Shown here: in pieces, positions 1,572 through 9,005 of the stretch
How positions within the stretch are numbered: position 1 is the first letter of the stretch
Layout: each line of letters starts with the position of its first letter
Source: Pseudomonadota bacterium
GTDB taxonomy: Bacteria > Pseudomonadota > Gammaproteobacteria > JAADHS01
Direction: 5' to 3'
Assembly: GCA_021821045.1 (NCBI GenBank)
Contig: JAKACW010000032.1
Location: 1 to 45,237 of the forward strand
Length of the DNA: 45,237 bases
The notes under the pieces: generated by a model
The model's database searches: none
What the model was told of the DNA's origin: nothing
What the model saw: the letters and a program-made list of their open reading frames with translations, nothing else
Made by a program: the position numbers and the translations under genes

Positions 1572-1718
1572 GTGGGAGCGAATTCCTTTCGCGATGAATC
1601 GATCTCTGGCAGGGGATTCACCAAATAATCGCGATAGGAAATCGCTCCCACAGGGATGGCCTGATCTGTAGGCGCGGTTTCCTGCGACGATTCTTCGCGG
1701 ATGAATCTGCTCCTATAG
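1572..1718. repeat. Cluster of four REP-type palindromic repeats (BIME-like)
   Basis: Copy 1 (1572-1600) begins GTGGGAGCGAATTCC and can fold on itself (GCGAA/TTCGC). Copy 2 (1627-1651) is the same unit on the other strand. Copy 3 (1666-1693) is a degenerate forward copy. Copy 4 (1691-1718) is a degenerate inverted copy. The cluster fills the gap between two convergent genes, and copy 4 contains the stop codon of the minus-strand gene. REP/BIME elements of this type are common in gammaproteobacterial intergenic regions and can stabilise mRNA 3' ends or bind gyrase/IHF. That role is family knowledge, not shown here. Confidence 0.8.
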
Positions 1719-4601
1719 TGCACTGGCCAGCACCTGGGCGGGGTGCAGTGCGACCCGACCCGTGCCGTGAAGAATTTGCTGGCGGCAGCTCGTCCCGGCG
1801 GCGACGATCACATCCGAATCCGGCGCTGAACGCACGGCGGGAAACAACACTTGTTCGCCGATGCGCATGGAAACGTCGTAACTATTAACGTCGTAGCCGA
1901 AAAAACCCGCCATGCCGCAGCAACCGCTGGCGATGACCCGCACCTGGCCGTCGGCGATCGTTCCCAACGCCTCGGTCGCCGCGCTCATGTCGGTCAACGC
2001 CTTCTGATGACAGTGACCATGCAGACGCAGCGTCACCCCCGCTTCGCGCAGCGCGAGCGCCGGCACGTGACCGCGCTGATTCAACGCCACGACGGCTTCG
2101 TCAAACAATACGATTCGATGGAAATAATCGGCCGCAGCGCGCGCGTCGGCCTCCTCGCGAAACAGTGCCGCTGCCTCATCGCGAAACGTCAGTGTCTCGG
2201 AAGGTTCGAGCCCGACGACCAGCGCCGGCTTCTGGCGCATGAGCCAATTCACCGCCGAATTCATACGCTTGCGGGCCTGGTCGATCATGCCCAGACTCAA
2301 CGCGATTCGCAACGAGGCAAAATGGGGTGCGAGCATCACGCGATAGCCGCAGCGCTCGAAAAACGTCACCGCAGCGCGCCCGACGTCCACATCGTAGAAC
2401 TCGGTAAAGGTATCATTGAGCAGCCACAGCTCGCCGTGCGGCGCTGTCGTCGCGGACTTGCGCGACTTGAACCAAGCGCTGAGAGTTTGTTTTTTCGGCA
2501 CCGGTAGCGAACGCCGCGGATGCACTCCCGTCACACGCTTCGCCCAGCTCGTGTTCAAAACCAATCGCGCAAGCCCCGGCGCGATGCGTCCGAGGCGATT
2601 GAGCGTGTCGACGCTGCTCAACAGTCGCGCCTGCAGCGGTGTACCGGCTTTCGCGTAGTAATGGGCCAAGTGCTCGGACTTCAACCGCGCCATGTCCACG
2701 TTGGCGGGGCACTCGGCACGGCAGCCCTTGCAGGCTAAACACAATGACAATGCTTCGTGAACCAAAGGATGAGCCATCGCCGCGGCAAACCCGTCGCTCG
2801 CCATCACTTGGCGCAGTACGTTGCCGCGACCGCGCGTCGAATGAAGTTCTTCCAGCGTCGCGCGATAGGATGGGCACATGGTGCCCGGGCCGTCACGGCG
2901 TCGACACACCCCCGCGCCCAGGCAACGCTGCGCCGCGGCGACTGCGCCGCCGGGACCATCCCAACGATAAAACGTCGAAACGGTCGCGGCGTCAGCAGGC
3001 GCAGCACGGGCGCGCCAATGCTCCTTGAGCGACGGCGGCTCGACGATGATCCCCGGGTTGAATACGTTTTTCGGATCGAAAGCCTGCTTCACGCCCGCCA
3101 TGACGTCGCACACGCTATTACCGAGAAACTTACGCAAAAACTGACCCCTCGCTCGCCCGTCGCCATGTTTCGCGCTGGCCGTGCCGCCGAAGGCGCACAG
3201 CAGATCCGTCACCTCGTCGGCCGTTTCGGCGATCACATCCGATGCGCCCGGCGCGGAAAGATCGACCAACGGTCGCAGATGAATCAGTCCCATGCCGACG
3301 GAACCGTAGTACACGCAGTCCAAGCCGCGCCGTTCCATGATTTCACGAACACGCGCGACGAAGTCCGGCAGCCGGTCGACCGACACGGCGCTGTCTTCGA
3401 TGAAGGTCACCGGTTTCGCGGGACTGGTAATGCCCATGAGCAAGCCCAATCCGGCGCGCCGGATTGCCCACACCTTCTCCGTCGCGTCCTGTTCCAGACG
3501 CACGCAGTGATAGGCGCCATGCTGCATCGTCCAGAGCCGTTCGATTTCCTGTGCGCGCGTCCGACTCTCGGCCGCATCGTCCCCGATATACTCGGCAATG
3601 AGAATCGCCTGGGGCTCACCTGCAATCCAGTCAGCGTGCTTGCGCGCTTCCAGGTTATTCGCCACCAGACCCAAGACGAACGCATCAAGCAGTTCCACCG
3701 CCGCGGCCCCGGAACGCACCGCCGGTACGATCGCCTCCAGCGCCTGTTCCAAACTGGAGAAGTGGCCGGCCACCAGCGCGCGATGGCGCGGTCGCGGCAC
3801 GAGTTTGACGCAGGCCTCCGTGACGACGCCCAGCGTACCTTCGGCGCCGCAAATCAACGTGGCAAGGTTGAAAGGCGAACCCTGCGGATTCCAGGGTTGA
3901 CCGCGAGCCAATACTTGCAGCGAATATCCAGCATTACAGGGCACAGCGGGACTGGGGTAGCGCCGCAGGATCTCGTCGCGGTGGTCGGTGATTTGATTTA
4001 CCACGGCGCGATGCAGCCAGCCGGGCGCATCCAATGCATCGCGGGTCGCTCGCAACCCGCTGTCGCTCAGCGGACCGAGCTTGACCATCTCGCCCTCGCC
4101 CACGACCATCGTCACGCTCTCCACGTGATCACGAGTCGTTCCGTGAAACTGCGCGTGGGCGCCCCAGGCGTTGTTGCCGATGGCGCCGCCGATGTTGCAG
4201 CGGTTCAGCGTCGATGGATCGGGTGCGAACATGAGACCATGGGAGGCGACGGCGCGGTTTAGTTCGTCGATGATCACCCCGGGCTGTACCCGTGCGAGAC
4301 CGCGCTGCACATCGACTTCGAGGATGTCGCGCATATGCCGCGCCATGTCGACGATCAAACCGCCGCCGACGGCTTGACCTGCGAGGCTGGTGCCGCCGCC
4401 GCGCATCGTCAGCGGGATTTGGTTCTCACAAGCCCATTTGACGAGGCGTTGGCAATCTTGCTCGTGCCGCGGCGCGACAACCCCCGTCGGGACGATCTCA
4501 TAGAGGGACGCATCGGAGGAAAAAAGCAGTTGCGCCAGTCGATCGGTGCGCACCTCACCGTCTATTTGTTGCCGCAGGGACTCGATCGCCGTGATGTTCA
4601 T
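1713..4601 (-). CDS. ydiJ: FAD-binding / Fe-S oxidoreductase, YdiJ-type D-2-hydroxyglutarate dehydrogenase
   Basis: 962 residues from the ATG at 4599-4601. Upstream in-frame codons would overlap the preceding ligase gene, and the conserved N-terminus (MNITAIESLRQQI) starts here. The order of domains is: FAD_binding_4 with LTMRGGGTSLAGQ and the CNIGGAIGNNAWG loop; a FAD-oxidase C-terminal domain; a ferredoxin region with a CLGAGVC...MCPSY cluster and CLACKGCRAECP; then a CCG-type domain with HGHCHQKAL and SGCCGMAGFFGY. This is the one-chain architecture of YdiJ, reported to oxidise D-2-hydroxyglutarate to 2-oxoglutarate. D-lactate or glycolate dehydrogenases share parts of it. It lies 31 bases downstream of the ATP-grasp gene on the same strand and converges on the DUF1338 gene, which fits disposal of D-2-hydroxyglutarate. 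Its stop codon is inside a REP repeat. Confidence 0.85.
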   Translation of the reverse strand: MNITAIESLRQQIDGEVRTDRLAQLLFSSDASLYEIVPTGVVAPRHEQDCQRLVKWACENQIPLTMRGGGTSLAGQAVGGGLIVDMARHMRDILEVDVQRGLARVQPGVIIDELNRAVASHGLMFAPDPSTLNRCNIGGAIGNNAWGAHAQFHGTTRDHVESVTMVVGEGEMVKLGPLSDSGLRATRDALDAPGWLHRAVVNQITDHRDEILRRYPSPAVPCNAGYSLQVLARGQPWNPQGSPFNLATLICGAEGTLGVVTEACVKLVPRPRHRALVAGHFSSLEQALEAIVPAVRSGAAAVELLDAFVLGLVANNLEARKHADWIAGEPQAILIAEYIGDDAAESRTRAQEIERLWTMQHGAYHCVRLEQDATEKVWAIRRAGLGLLMGITSPAKPVTFIEDSAVSVDRLPDFVARVREIMERRGLDCVYYGSVGMGLIHLRPLVDLSAPGASDVIAETADEVTDLLCAFGGTASAKHGDGRARGQFLRKFLGNSVCDVMAGVKQAFDPKNVFNPGIIVEPPSLKEHWRARAAPADAATVSTFYRWDGPGGAVAAAQRCLGAGVCRRRDGPGTMCPSYRATLEELHSTRGRGNVLRQVMASDGFAAAMAHPLVHEALSLCLACKGCRAECPANVDMARLKSEHLAHYYAKAGTPLQARLLSSVDTLNRLGRIAPGLARLVLNTSWAKRVTGVHPRRSLPVPKKQTLSAWFKSRKSATTAPHGELWLLNDTFTEFYDVDVGRAAVTFFERCGYRVMLAPHFASLRIALSLGMIDQARKRMNSAVNWLMRQKPALVVGLEPSETLTFRDEAAALFREEADARAAADYFHRIVLFDEAVVALNQRGHVPALALREAGVTLRLHGHCHQKALTDMSAATEALGTIADGQVRVIASGCCGMAGFFGYDVNSYDVSMRIGEQVLFPAVRSAPDSDVIVAAGTSCRQQILHGTGRVALHPAQVLASAL

Positions 4602-4632: not shown

Positions 4633-6111
4633 CTACCGATTGCGCTTGCTCTCGATGCGGCGCACAAACTCCTGGAGGATAATGCGATACAGTTCGTCGC
4701 CGAGGACGCCGTCTTCCCAGCCACCATCGAGATTGGGATTGTCATTGACCTCGATCACGAAGATGCCCTTTTCCGTCTGCTTGACGTCGACACCGTAAAG
4801 CCCGTCACCGATAGGCATCGCCGCGCTGAGCGCGGCTTTGATGACTTCCGTCGGCACATCCTCGACCCGCCAGGTCTTGGTACCGCCTTCCTCGACCCGG
4901 CCGCCGCTGGTGTGCTTGACGATCTGCCAATGATGTTTACTCATAAAATACTGACAGGCAAACAGCGGACGGCGATTGAGAATTCCGATGCGCCAGTCGA
5001 AGCCGGTGTACACATACTCCTGAGCCAGAATCAAATCGGACTCCTTGAGGAGCTTTTCCGATATTTCGAGATACTGGCTGGCGCTCTCCGCCTTGAATAC
5101 CCCGCGCGAGAACGAACCATCGGGAATTTTCAGCACCACCGGATAACCGAGGATGTCGATGCTGGCGATGCGATTGTCCTCGGTGATCACCGCGGTGCGC
5201 GGCGCCGGAACGTTGTTCCCGGCCAGAAGCTCGGCCAAGAAGATCTTGTTCGTACAACGCACGATGGAATCCGGATCATCGATGACCACCATGCCTTCGT
5301 TGGCCGCCTTGCGGGCGAAGCGATAGGTGTAGTGGTCGATATTGGTCGTCTCGCGAATGAACAGGGCATCGTATTCCGCTAGGCGGCCGTAGTCTTTGCG
5401 TTCGATGAGTTCGACGTTGATGTCGAGTTTCTTGCCGACTTTGATGAACTTTTCCAGCGCCCGCTTGTTCGACGGCGCGAATTTTTCGTCGGGGTTGTGC
5501 AAAATCGCCAGATCGTAGCGGCTCGTGCTGGGCGCTTTGGGCTGGCGCCACGGCCGCGATAAATGATTCTGGAACGTCTCGGAAAAAAACGGCTCCTCTT
5601 CCTTCGTCAACCGATTGAGCGAGTAGGGCTTGATGGCCGAAATGTGCCACTTCCCCGTGCGCTTGAGTTCGACTTTCAAAAGCGGGCAACGAATATAGTC
5701 GAACAGCTGCCGCGACACTTCCTGCAAAGCGGGATCGTTGACACTGCAACGCCCGAAGAAAATTCGGAACTCGTATTGATCCGCGCCGTTGAGCTGTTGC
5801 GACTTGGCGAAAATCTTCTGGACGGTGTCGTCGAGATCTTCAACCGTGATGCTGTAGACGGGCTTGCTGCTTAAATCGGTCAGCGTGCGCACGGACGGAA
5901 TCACTTTGTGACGCCTCGCCTCCGCGAGCAGGGAGCAATAGTATCCCAGGCTGAGATAGCGATAACTGCGACAAAGGTTGATCACCTTGATGTTGCGTCG
6001 CTTGAGAAAATCCTTGCCGGCGAGATATTCCTCGGCTCGCACGACAACGGCGCCGGGAAACTCCCCGCGCCAATCCGATAGGTTTTCGACTAATACTATG
6101 TGCTCAGACAT
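4633..6111 (-). CDS. RimK-like ATP-grasp ligase with N-terminal extension
   Basis: 492 residues, much longer than ribosomal S6 modification protein RimK (about 300). The N-terminal half (about 1-200) matches the extension seen in RimK-like ATP-grasp proteins of unknown role. The C-terminal half is an ATP-grasp domain with the lid and nucleotide segment VVLKIPDGSFSRGVFK and the metal-binding EVNDNPNLDGG (454-464). ATP-grasp ligases of this class form amide bonds, often adding glutamate or another amino acid to a peptide or protein carboxylate via an acyl-phosphate. Its start overlaps the stop of the GNAT/C39 gene by 8 bases, so the two are translationally coupled. Substrate unknown. It is not a standard RimK, since no S6-linked context is present. 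Confidence 0.85.
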   Translation of the reverse strand: MSEHIVLVENLSDWRGEFPGAVVVRAEEYLAGKDFLKRRNIKVINLCRSYRYLSLGYYCSLLAEARRHKVIPSVRTLTDLSSKPVYSITVEDLDDTVQKIFAKSQQLNGADQYEFRIFFGRCSVNDPALQEVSRQLFDYIRCPLLKVELKRTGKWHISAIKPYSLNRLTKEEEPFFSETFQNHLSRPWRQPKAPSTSRYDLAILHNPDEKFAPSNKRALEKFIKVGKKLDINVELIERKDYGRLAEYDALFIRETTNIDHYTYRFARKAANEGMVVIDDPDSIVRCTNKIFLAELLAGNNVPAPRTAVITEDNRIASIDILGYPVVLKIPDGSFSRGVFKAESASQYLEISEKLLKESDLILAQEYVYTGFDWRIGILNRRPLFACQYFMSKHHWQIVKHTSGGRVEEGGTKTWRVEDVPTEVIKAALSAAMPIGDGLYGVDVKQTEKGIFVIEVNDNPNLDGGWEDGVLGDELYRIILQEFVRRIESKRNR

Positions 6112-7234
6112 CGTTTGCTGTTGGATTTCCTGTTCCAGTGTTGACGCGCGGCCGAATGATCAACGCAACTTTCTGACCCGCTTTCCCATAGCGGGCCATG
6201 CGCTGAAAATCTTTTTTTAATATCGGCATGTTGATGCAATCGGTTGGGGACTTTTCGAGGGGATAGTCCACGAACGAATCATGGACGTAGATGTATTTAT
6301 CGTCAAACCCCGTCACCACAACCCAATGAGGGAATTTTTCCCTGTAGATGCGGTACGAACTGATCAAAACGATAGGTATCCCGCCCTCGCCGAACTTGGT
6401 TTGCAGCTCATCGACATTCAACGCGTGGTGATGAATGGCGACCGGCAGTTTCTCCAGTTCGTGCAGGAAATCCTCGTGAACGATTCGCATCACTTCCTTT
6501 TTCTCGGGGTCGCGAACCGAGTCCACCAACACAACCCCCGGCCCGTTGACGAAAAGCTCGACGTCGAAGCCACGTTGATAGGCCGATAGCGCGAGCCCGT
6601 AGGGACTGCAGCCGCCATGGCCCGACGTCATGAAGATCGTCGTGGATTCACGCCAAATTCGCAACTCCTCCATGCGGTTCATCGCGGTATTTTTGTTCAA
6701 GGCACTCATCGCCATCATCAAAGCCGCCGGTCCACAGGTGAAATCCAGCGTTTGTTCATAGAATGGCACCTTGACGCGCTCGAGGTTCAGGTGCGGAACC
6801 AGATGCTTCTCGAAGCGCAAAGCCTCCATATGGTCTTCGTAGTAGTTCTTGTGCGCGCCAAACTGTTTGTAACCCACGTGCTTGTAGAGGCGAATCGCCG
6901 TCTCGTTGTCGCGCCGGATCTCCAATCGCATGGCCACGCAGTCGTGCTCCAGGGCCGCGCTCTCGGCGGCTTGGAGCAAACTCTTGGCAACGCCCTGGCT
7001 GCGAAACGCGGGCGCAACCGCGATGGAGTAGAGACGCGCCAACGAAGTGCCCTCATTGAAAAGCACCATGGCATAGCCGCGAACCGTCTCACCATCGACC
7101 TCCAACAGGGTCGTCGCCTTACCTTTGCTTAGGATGTGGCGAAAACTACGCCGCGACAGCTTATCGGTCTCGAAGCTGCTTTCTTCGATAGCCACCAGAG
7201 CATCGATATCGTTAAGTGTTGCTGGGCGAATCAT
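6104..7234 (-). CDS. Fusion of GNAT acetyltransferase and C39-like cysteine peptidase
   Basis: 376 residues from the ATG at 7232-7234; a TTG two codons earlier is possible. Residues 1-150 are a RimI-like GNAT domain with the acetyl-CoA loop RSQGVA (78-83) and RLYKHVGYK. Residues about 155-360 are a papain/C39-like peptidase domain with the nucleophile in TLDFTCGPAALMM (C167), HWVVVTGF (H303) and VHDS (D319), so a complete Cys-His-Asp set is visible. There is no transporter domain, unlike bacteriocin C39 exporters, and no signal peptide. The domain pair is consistently found next to RimK-like ligases in proteobacteria, as here (8-base overlap). A role in acetylating and trimming the ligase product is inference. 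Confidence 0.85.
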   Translation of the reverse strand: MIRPATLNDIDALVAIEESSFETDKLSRRSFRHILSKGKATTLLEVDGETVRGYAMVLFNEGTSLARLYSIAVAPAFRSQGVAKSLLQAAESAALEHDCVAMRLEIRRDNETAIRLYKHVGYKQFGAHKNYYEDHMEALRFEKHLVPHLNLERVKVPFYEQTLDFTCGPAALMMAMSALNKNTAMNRMEELRIWRESTTIFMTSGHGGCSPYGLALSAYQRGFDVELFVNGPGVVLVDSVRDPEKKEVMRIVHEDFLHELEKLPVAIHHHALNVDELQTKFGEGGIPIVLISSYRIYREKFPHWVVVTGFDDKYIYVHDSFVDYPLEKSPTDCINMPILKKDFQRMARYGKAGQKVALIIRPRVNTGTGNPTANDV

Positions 7235-7313
7235 GGTCAAAAGGTCGTCAAAAACCTAAAATCTACAAAGATGTACAGAACGCTACGGCAACCCCATAGA
7301 CAAGAAGCGAATT

Positions 7314-9005
7314 ATGAACCAAGCCAGCCCCGACCGCTATTACAACTACGACGATCTCACCCGCTTGCTTCATGATTGGGCGGCGCGGTTTCCCAACTTA
7401 CTGCGCCTGGAGTCGATCGGGCGATCCTACGAAGGCCGGGACATATGGCTTGCCAGCGTAACGGATTTCAGCGCGGGCCCGGACCATGAAAAGCCCGCCC
7501 TGTGGGTCGACGGCAATATCCACTCCGCCGAGCTGTGTGGATCCACCGCCTGCTTGGTGTTGCTTCACCGGCTGCTCCACGACGGAGCGTCCGACCCGAA
7601 GCTGCGCCAAGTGTTGGCCCAACGCAGTTTCTACGTCTGCCCGCGGGTCAACCCCGATGGGGCGGAATGGGCGCTGGCCTCGCCACCCAAGCTAACGCGC
7701 TCCAGCATTCGCCCGTATCCCTACGATGAGGAACCCATCGGCGGGCTCAAAGTGGAAGATGTCGACGGCGATGGCCGAATACTCACCATGCGGATTCCCG
7801 ATCCCAACGGACCGTGGAAAATCTGCCCTGACGAACCGCGCTTGCTGATTCCGCGGGAGCCCACCGAGAGCGACGGCGAGTACTTCCGGCTCCTGCCGGA
7901 GGGAACGTTCGACAATTTCGATGGCTACACGATGAAACCGCAGGCCAAGAAAGAGCGATTGGATCTCAATCGAAATTTTCCCGGTCTATGGCGCGAAGAA
8001 CACGAACAACCCGGGGCTGGCGCCTACCCGGCCTCCGAGTCGGAGGTCCGCGCCGTGGTCGATTTCATCGCGCGCCACACCAACATCGGCGCCGGCATCG
8101 CCTTGCACAGTTATTCGGGCGCGTTTCTGCGGCCCTATTCGTATCAAAGCGATGACTCTTTCATTGCGGACGATCGTTGGATATACGAAAAAATCGGCGC
8201 CAAGGCCACGGAACTCACTGGCTATCCCGCCGTGTCCGCCTACCACGACTTCCGCTACCACCCCAACGAAATCATCACCGGGGCCTTGGACGATTGGCTA
8301 TACGACAGCCGCGGCCTGTTTGCCTGGACCGTGGAGATCTGGAGCCCGCAGCGCCAAGCGGGCATCACCGACTTCCGCTTGTTCGACTGGTATCGCAATC
8401 ACCCCCACGACGATGACCGCAAACTGCTCGCGTGGAGCGATCGAACGTTGGGCGAAAACGGTTATGTCGATTGGTACCCGTTCAATCATCCGCAATTGGG
8501 CAAGATTGCGCTGGGCGGCTGGCAGCCGCTATTTTCGTTTTGGAATCCTCCCCAACCGCTGCTGGCCAAGGAAGTCAGCCCGATTGTCGATTGGCTCATC
8601 TGGCATGCCCAGCTATTGCCTCGCCTCGACTGGCTCGACGTGACGGCCACACCGATAGGGCATAACGTTTATCGTCTGCACGCTGTCGCGCAGAACCGAG
8701 GTTGGCTGCCCACCTACATCAGCAAGGTCGGCCTGCGCAAAAAGCTGAGCCGCGGGGTGACCTTTGAAATCACACCGCCAGCAAACGTGAACATACTCGA
8801 AGGAGACCGCAGAATTGTCGCCACCGAGCTGGAGGGTCGCGCAAACAAGAACTGCGCTCCCTTTGGTTGGGCCGCAGTGGGGGTCGATCCCACCGACGAC
8901 AGAGTCGGTGCAAGCTGGATCGTCAGCGCTCCGGCGGGCTCGACCATCACAGTTTCAGCAAGCCACGAACGAGCGGGAACAATCCGCCGCGAAATCACAC
9001 TTTAG
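7314..9005 (+). CDS. M14-family zinc carboxypeptidase
   Basis: 563 residues with no signal peptide, so probably cytoplasmic. The zinc ligands are visible as GNIHSAE (H70, E73) and ALHSYSGA (H265). The substrate-carboxylate arginine region is LDLNRNFPG (N219-R220-N221) and the catalytic glutamate is WTVEIW (E341). Residues 120-210 are an insert between the zinc site and the NRN motif, and 440-563 form a beta-rich C-terminal domain. M14 enzymes remove C-terminal residues; some members remove polyglutamate or gamma-linked amino acids. It is divergent from the GNAT/C39-ATP-grasp pair with 79 bases between the starts, so it may reverse what the ligase adds (inference). Substrate unknown. Confidence 0.9.
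   Translation: MNQASPDRYYNYDDLTRLLHDWAARFPNLLRLESIGRSYEGRDIWLASVTDFSAGPDHEKPALWVDGNIHSAELCGSTACLVLLHRLLHDGASDPKLRQVLAQRSFYVCPRVNPDGAEWALASPPKLTRSSIRPYPYDEEPIGGLKVEDVDGDGRILTMRIPDPNGPWKICPDEPRLLIPREPTESDGEYFRLLPEGTFDNFDGYTMKPQAKKERLDLNRNFPGLWREEHEQPGAGAYPASESEVRAVVDFIARHTNIGAGIALHSYSGAFLRPYSYQSDDSFIADDRWIYEKIGAKATELTGYPAVSAYHDFRYHPNEIITGALDDWLYDSRGLFAWTVEIWSPQRQAGITDFRLFDWYRNHPHDDDRKLLAWSDRTLGENGYVDWYPFNHPQLGKIALGGWQPLFSFWNPPQPLLAKEVSPIVDWLIWHAQLLPRLDWLDVTATPIGHNVYRLHAVAQNRGWLPTYISKVGLRKKLSRGVTFEITPPANVNILEGDRRIVATELEGRANKNCAPFGWAAVGVDPTDDRVGASWIVSAPAGSTITVSASHERAGTIRREITL

Follow-up and report, generated by a model that had tools for sequence, protein, structure and literature searches.

Within the window, i.e. 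the whole stretch of 45,237 nucleotides that was analysed, a RimK-like ATP-grasp ligase is encoded together with a fusion of a GNAT domain and a C39-like cysteine peptidase, and a survey of 370 genomes from the host's class, filtered at 90% completeness, shows that this ligase/GNAT-C39 pair is near-obligate. An M14 zinc carboxypeptidase gene, divergent from the other two, is a real but optional accessory of the pair and not its core eraser, because only 7 of the 90 genomes with an RLAN domain carry it. As to function, our preferred reading is cytosolic peptide-tail editing, which we regard as possible rather than probable. The ligase and peptidase would add and trim amino acids at a carboxyl terminus, following a logic like that of RimK-RimB carried out by other enzymes.

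Organization of the locus

The features of the locus are as follows:

4633-6111, minus strand: ligase with RLAN and RimK-like ATP-grasp domains, 492 aa (PF14401, E=3.9e-49, and RimK/ATP-grasp matches)
6104-7240, minus strand: GNAT and DUF3335 fusion (C39-like, papain-fold), 376-378 aa (PF11814, E=1.4e-85, and GNAT matches)
7241-7313: divergent intergenic gap between the GNAT-C39 and M14 genes, 73 bp
7314-9005, plus strand: M14 zinc carboxypeptidase, 563 aa (PF00246, E=7.8e-45), the divergent, optional third gene

A preliminary description of this DNA had placed these three genes here, with an 8-base overlap within the pair and a divergent M14 gene. Its coordinates proved exact, and profile matches confirmed the domains. 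The overlap spans 6104-6111. The GNAT-C39 gene starts at TTG 7240 (378 aa) or, equally plausibly, at ATG 7234 (376 aa), two codons further in, and the spacing to the divergent M14 gene is 73-79 bp. Residue numbers below are those of the window proteins, with GNAT-C39 counted from TTG 7240. A single weak promoter-like match in the gap (7234-7262, plus strand) did not rise above shuffled sequences. The three-gene arrangement is well beyond chance, and ligase, GNAT-C39 and M14 all look active, judging by predicted catalytic residues that are intact in each. With respect to a defence-system role, PADLOC gave no match for any of the three.

Two further genes precede the ligase gene in window coordinates. 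The nearer one (1713-4601) begins 31 bp 3' of the ligase, in the same orientation, and encodes a YdiJ/GlpC-like FAD/Fe-S dehydrogenase that falls below the YdiJ cut-off. It may be co-transcribed with the ligase. As a conserved downstream partner it was rejected, since a related protein lay beside RLAN in 0 of the other 95 loci surveyed. The 394-aa protein encoded at 371-1555 gave no hit against Pfam, NCBIfam or the sequences of the PDB. We take it to resemble VOC-fold 2-oxoadipate (HglS/DUF1338-type) enzymes, which would suit its YdiJ-like neighbour.

The ligase and the GNAT-DUF3335 fusion

The ligase matches the RLAN profile PF14401 with 166.6 bits (cut-off 25), after which an ATP-grasp domain follows, and the RimK profile PF08443 with 37 bits (cut-off 21). 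In the alignment, the ATP-grasp catalytic residues K289, K328, D442, E454 and N456 are invariant in 94/94 relatives from other genomes. The protein is RimK-like and not RimK, because its 82.1 bits against the NCBIfam RimK-family model are below the cut-off of 143.4. Its predicted structure (pLDDT 88.7) is nearest to the folds of LysX, ArgX and RimK. These enzymes extend the C-terminal glutamate of a protein; RimK and ArgX add glutamate, and LysX adds aminoadipate. For the window ligase, the predicted reaction is the coupling of an amino acid to a carboxylate group.

The peptidase half of the fusion partner matches DUF3335 (PF11814, 'Peptidase_C39 like') with 286.4 bits against a cut-off of 25. 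Its papain-type residues Q163, C169 and H305 are invariant in the alignment of 65 relatives and D321 is present in 63 of them, while E107 and Y134 of the GNAT half are invariant in all 65. The predicted structure has a pLDDT of 92.8, and a comparison with solved structures covering the GNAT half gave Ard1 and RimI, both N-alpha-acetyltransferases, as the nearest folds (Z ~23). DUF3335 is often fused to GNAT (PMC10318531, with a reference there to Iyer et al. (2009) for a role that may involve a ligase or acetylation). Against the RimI model TIGR01575 (cut-off 86.4), GNAT-C39 scored 85.9 bits as a protein and 88.8 in the genome scan. Since the same genome has a separate true RimK (contig C91, 278.7 bits) and a better RimI (contig C133, 119 bits), the ligase and GNAT-C39 are not the housekeeping enzymes.

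Conservation of the ligase/peptidase pair

RLAN (PF14401) was found in 90 of the 370 genomes, about a quarter of the sample, and a strong DUF3335 match (E<1e-70) in 62. RLAN was co-present in 61 of these 62; the exception, G143, again gave no RLAN when rechecked. The hypergeometric probability of this co-occurrence, 4e-46, overstates the case because the genomes are related, although the effect is not in doubt. Neighbourhoods of up to 18 kb around RLAN were compared in the 90 genomes, five loci from named genomes and the window (96 loci). Partner genes were called by anchoring on known genes, and an apparent 'partner' cluster of antisense ORFs beside RLAN, which proved false, was dropped after this step.

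A C39-type partner is adjacent in 91 of the 96 loci. Of the 93 partner genes, 72 precede the ligase gene in the same orientation and in most cases overlap or abut it; another 15 are encoded on the opposite strand and 6 are located downstream. The partner is long enough for both GNAT and C39 in 65 cases; the shorter ones are mostly stand-alone C39 proteins of ~240 aa, together with several GNAT-C39 genes that are truncated or split in the sequence data. The culturable Methylocaldum sp. 14B (L003) is among the carriers of the pair. The ligase/GNAT-peptidase pairing asserted in the preliminary description is thus strongly confirmed. Its remark that no characterised substrate is known for the pair agreed with the literature searched here, in which neither a substrate nor experimental work on the RLAN/GNAT-C39 pair was found.

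Conserved third partners had also been suggested as a route to the substrate, and no substrate gene is linked to the pair in the 96 loci. A conserved short peptide substrate was rejected on the same survey, the clusters obtained consisting of antisense or low-complexity ORFs, or of small proteins limited to 3-4 loci. Neither a conserved transporter nor a LysW-like carrier gene was found near the pair. These results bear on a RiPP maturation locus, in which the ATP-grasp enzyme would install links, the C39-like domain remove a leader and M14 trim the end. Although C39 peptidases and ATP-grasp ligases are both found in RiPP clusters (PMC8939145), no precursor ORF is conserved beside the pair in 96 loci, no transporter is a conserved neighbour and the peptidase belongs to DUF3335, unlike the C39 domains fused to transporters. 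We therefore disfavour this explanation as very improbable.

Several other neighbours recur. A DUF155 (RMND1/Sif2-like) gene lies downstream of the ligase in six loci (L067, L089, L128, L135, L138 and L147) and downstream of GNAT-C39 in a seventh (L104). In about eleven loci (L070, L085, L087, L088, L090, L097, L098, L119 and L125-L127), argA-like (AA-kinase and GNAT) and argE-like (M20) genes are located divergently upstream of GNAT-C39. Several genomes have argA/argE and ilvD genes as neighbours of the pair; these were set aside as functional partners, chromosomal synteny being more likely. In 13 loci a GCS2-type ligase follows the RLAN ligase, usually with an N-formylglutamate amidohydrolase, as a third lineage's alternative to M14 and DUF2817. 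A solo form of the RLAN ligase from a laboratory-tractable genus is encoded on the Pseudomonas aeruginosa plasmid pZYPA1927 (L190:5911-7500), beside pagP and glutamate/aspartate transport genes; neither C39 nor GNAT is encoded next to it.

A small-molecule pathway is a serious rival to tail editing, though in our judgement a rather unlikely one. The ligase would make a dipeptide-like or N-acetylated amide serving as osmolyte, storage compound or signal, the GNAT would cap the amine and the peptidases would recycle the product. The N-acetylglutaminylglutamine amide (NAGGN) system is also built from a GNAT, an ATP-grasp enzyme and a peptidase, and thus has the same kinds of parts. In addition, the 13 loci with GCS2 and N-formylglutamate amidohydrolase, whose families have small amides as substrates, the argA-/argE-type genes and the lack of a protein substrate linked to the pair would all be in keeping with such a pathway. 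However, the predicted fold of the ligase is nearest to protein-modifying enzymes and the modelled GNAT half nearest to protein N-terminal acetyltransferases. Further, no asparagine-synthetase-like amidase is conserved beside the pair, and TIGR03103 (N-acetylglutaminylglutamine synthetase) gave 25.7 bits against a cut-off of 569, over the GNAT part only.

The M14 carboxypeptidase and its linkage to the pair

The M14 protein matches PF00246 with 154 bits (cut-off 21.6), and its relatives include carboxypeptidases A4 and T. The zinc and catalytic residues H70, E73, H265 and E341, as well as N219, R220 and R133, are invariant in 11/11 aligned sequences. When the window motif 'GALDDW' is aligned to carboxypeptidase A4, Asp326 stands opposite the Ile of 'SIDW', a position that we take to be residue 255 in bovine numbering, the S1' specificity position. 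Asp326 is kept in all eight close M14 relatives. In carboxypeptidase B, an Asp at this position favours lysine and arginine. The alignment thus suggests that M14 prefers C-terminal basic residues. The nearest relatives of the ligase attach acidic residues and, if both inferences hold, the M14 reaction would not be a simple reversal of that of the ligase. A model in which M14 takes off just the residues put on by the ligase may therefore be wrong, unless these residues are basic or the role of M14 is to prepare the acceptor end. No phage-borne relatives of M14 were found, and the only relative recovered in a plasmid search was a protein of 31% identity from the archaeon Halomontanus rarus.

This M14 subfamily is rare (8/370 genomes). 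RLAN is co-present in seven of the eight genomes (hypergeometric 3e-4), and in six of the eight, from four families, the M14 gene is divergent and upstream of GNAT-C39. The six linked loci are those of the window, of G076, G189 and G278 (one family), of G337, where one gene lies between M14 and the pair, and of G092. Beyond the trio, the flanking genes change between families (e.g. lpxB, carbonic anhydrase, CorA, ABC1 kinase, DUF155 and histidine kinase); the trio has thus stayed intact in changing surroundings. Across the six loci, the pairwise identities of M14 correlate with those of the ligase (r=0.95), as expected under joint inheritance. In the ligase tree the six loci have a support of 76, by which a single clade is neither shown nor excluded. 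M14 is missing from 83 of the 90 RLAN genomes (present in ~7%), is unlinked to the pair in G145 and G738, and is present without RLAN in G341, G602 and G540.

The inference of the preliminary description that M14 is the eraser of the pair is thus supported as regards a non-random linkage, with divergent adjacency across four families and different flanks and with parallel divergence, and fails as regards a core role. Conservation beside the pair in relatives, likewise, holds for most M14 genomes and fails for most RLAN genomes.

In six other genomes, distinct from the M14-linked ones, a DUF2817 protein is encoded between or beside the genes of the pair. Its conserved motifs (HGxEG, D-x-NRN, D-x-H-x-G and T-L-E-F-G) by our reading match the M14 pattern, i.e. 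that of an M14-like zinc peptidase. A strong DUF2817 match is found in 7 of 80 RLAN genomes, in six of which it adjoins the pair, and in 5 of 53 RLAN-negative genomes. It is thus about as frequent without RLAN, and only its adjacency, not its presence, is informative. The linkages of M14 and DUF2817 to the pair may be new.

A second serious rival, in our view unlikely, holds that the pair is one system and that M14 is a general cytosolic carboxypeptidase which shares the divergent promoter region and stands outside the chemistry of the pair. The absence of M14 from most pair genomes, its position on the other strand, its occurrence alone elsewhere, its predicted basic-residue preference and the intervening gene in G337 would all fit such a separation. 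However, six of eight M14 genes are adjacent in the same orientation amid different outer flanks, their divergence tracks that of the ligase, and a second M14-like peptidase, DUF2817, is linked to the pair elsewhere.

Proposed function

For cytosolic peptide-tail editing, we infer amidoligase chemistry on a macromolecule. The RLAN/ATP-grasp enzyme would spend ATP to couple a single amino acid or several to a carboxylate group; the likeliest acceptors would be the C-terminus and the glutamate side chains of proteins or peptides. GNAT-C39, co-translated with the ligase, would contribute an N-alpha-acetyltransferase-like activity (acetyl capping), and its C39 half would cleave or process the ligase product as a papain-type amidase/peptidase. 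Where present, M14 would trim C-terminal residues; in other lineages DUF2817 may take this part.

Tail editing is suggested by the domains and their intact active sites, by the nearest folds (LysX, ArgX and RimK for the ligase, Ard1 and RimI for the GNAT half), by the pairing (61/62), the partners (91/96) and the adjacency of M14 (6/8) and DUF2817 (6/7), and by the separate housekeeping RimK and RimI genes. It also draws on analogy to RimK-RimB, an experimentally shown ligase/protease system (PMC11957791). Counting against it, M14 is absent in ~92% of RLAN genomes, DUF2817 is about as frequent without RLAN, the P. aeruginosa RLAN ligase has no peptidase neighbour and no conserved short peptide gene lies near the pair. 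In addition, the predicted basic preference of M14 is at odds with a polyglutamate tail, and nothing in the data tells a protein substrate from a small-molecule one.

If protein tails are edited, the locus would represent another reversible post-translational system in bacteria, for which polyglutamylation is known in few proteins. Roughly one in four of the sampled genomes of the class encodes the ligase, in nearly every case with a peptidase partner, and no characterised substrate was found for it. The linked carboxypeptidases offer practical handles, as a trimmer of predicted specificity could read the residues added by the ligase.

Comparison with known systems

The RLAN/GNAT-C39 pairing is not new and was predicted earlier. 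A pairing of RLAN/ATP-grasp and GNAT-C39 proteins, of the same kinds as those found here, is credited to Iyer and colleagues (2009).

In the Rim system of Pseudomonas, the RimK ligase is accompanied by the retropepsin-like protease RimB, with or without RimA (PMC11957791; PMC10092738), and RimB strips glutamates from the ribosomal target of RimK (PMC11957791). Both loci encode a protease together with a RimK-like ATP-grasp ligase, and for Rim the logic of a writer and a remover has been demonstrated. In contrast, the window ligase has an N-terminal RLAN domain, its peptidase is a papain-fold DUF3335 fused to GNAT, M14 is an accessory and the host's own RimK is encoded elsewhere. No retropepsin-like RimB lies beside the ligase, the neighbours being GNAT-DUF3335, M14 and the FAD/Fe-S enzyme. 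The window system would most likely work like RimK-RimB and is not a member of the Rim system.

The Rlo system, comprising the RloA protease, RloB and the ATP-grasp protein RloC (PMC12239564), also encodes an ATP-grasp protein with a protease. However, its protease is a secreted aspartic protease with a membrane transglutaminase-like partner, and GNAT, C39 and M14 are not part of it.

In LysW-type lysine and arginine synthesis, LysX or ArgX joins an amino acid to the C-terminal glutamate of a protein, from which a zinc carboxypeptidase, LysK, frees it. LysX and ArgX are the closest folds for the modelled window ligase, whereas the window M14 does not belong to the M20-type family of LysK, and neither a LysW-like gene nor lysine-pathway genes are linked to the pair. 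Beside Rim and Rlo, the locus could represent a third, chemically distinct proteobacterial ligase/protease system for tail editing, an idea that we consider doubtful but conceivable. In such a system, the RLAN ligase would write, the GNAT-cysteine peptidase would cap and cut, and interchangeable carboxypeptidases of the M14 superfamily (M14 proper or DUF2817) would trim according to lineage.
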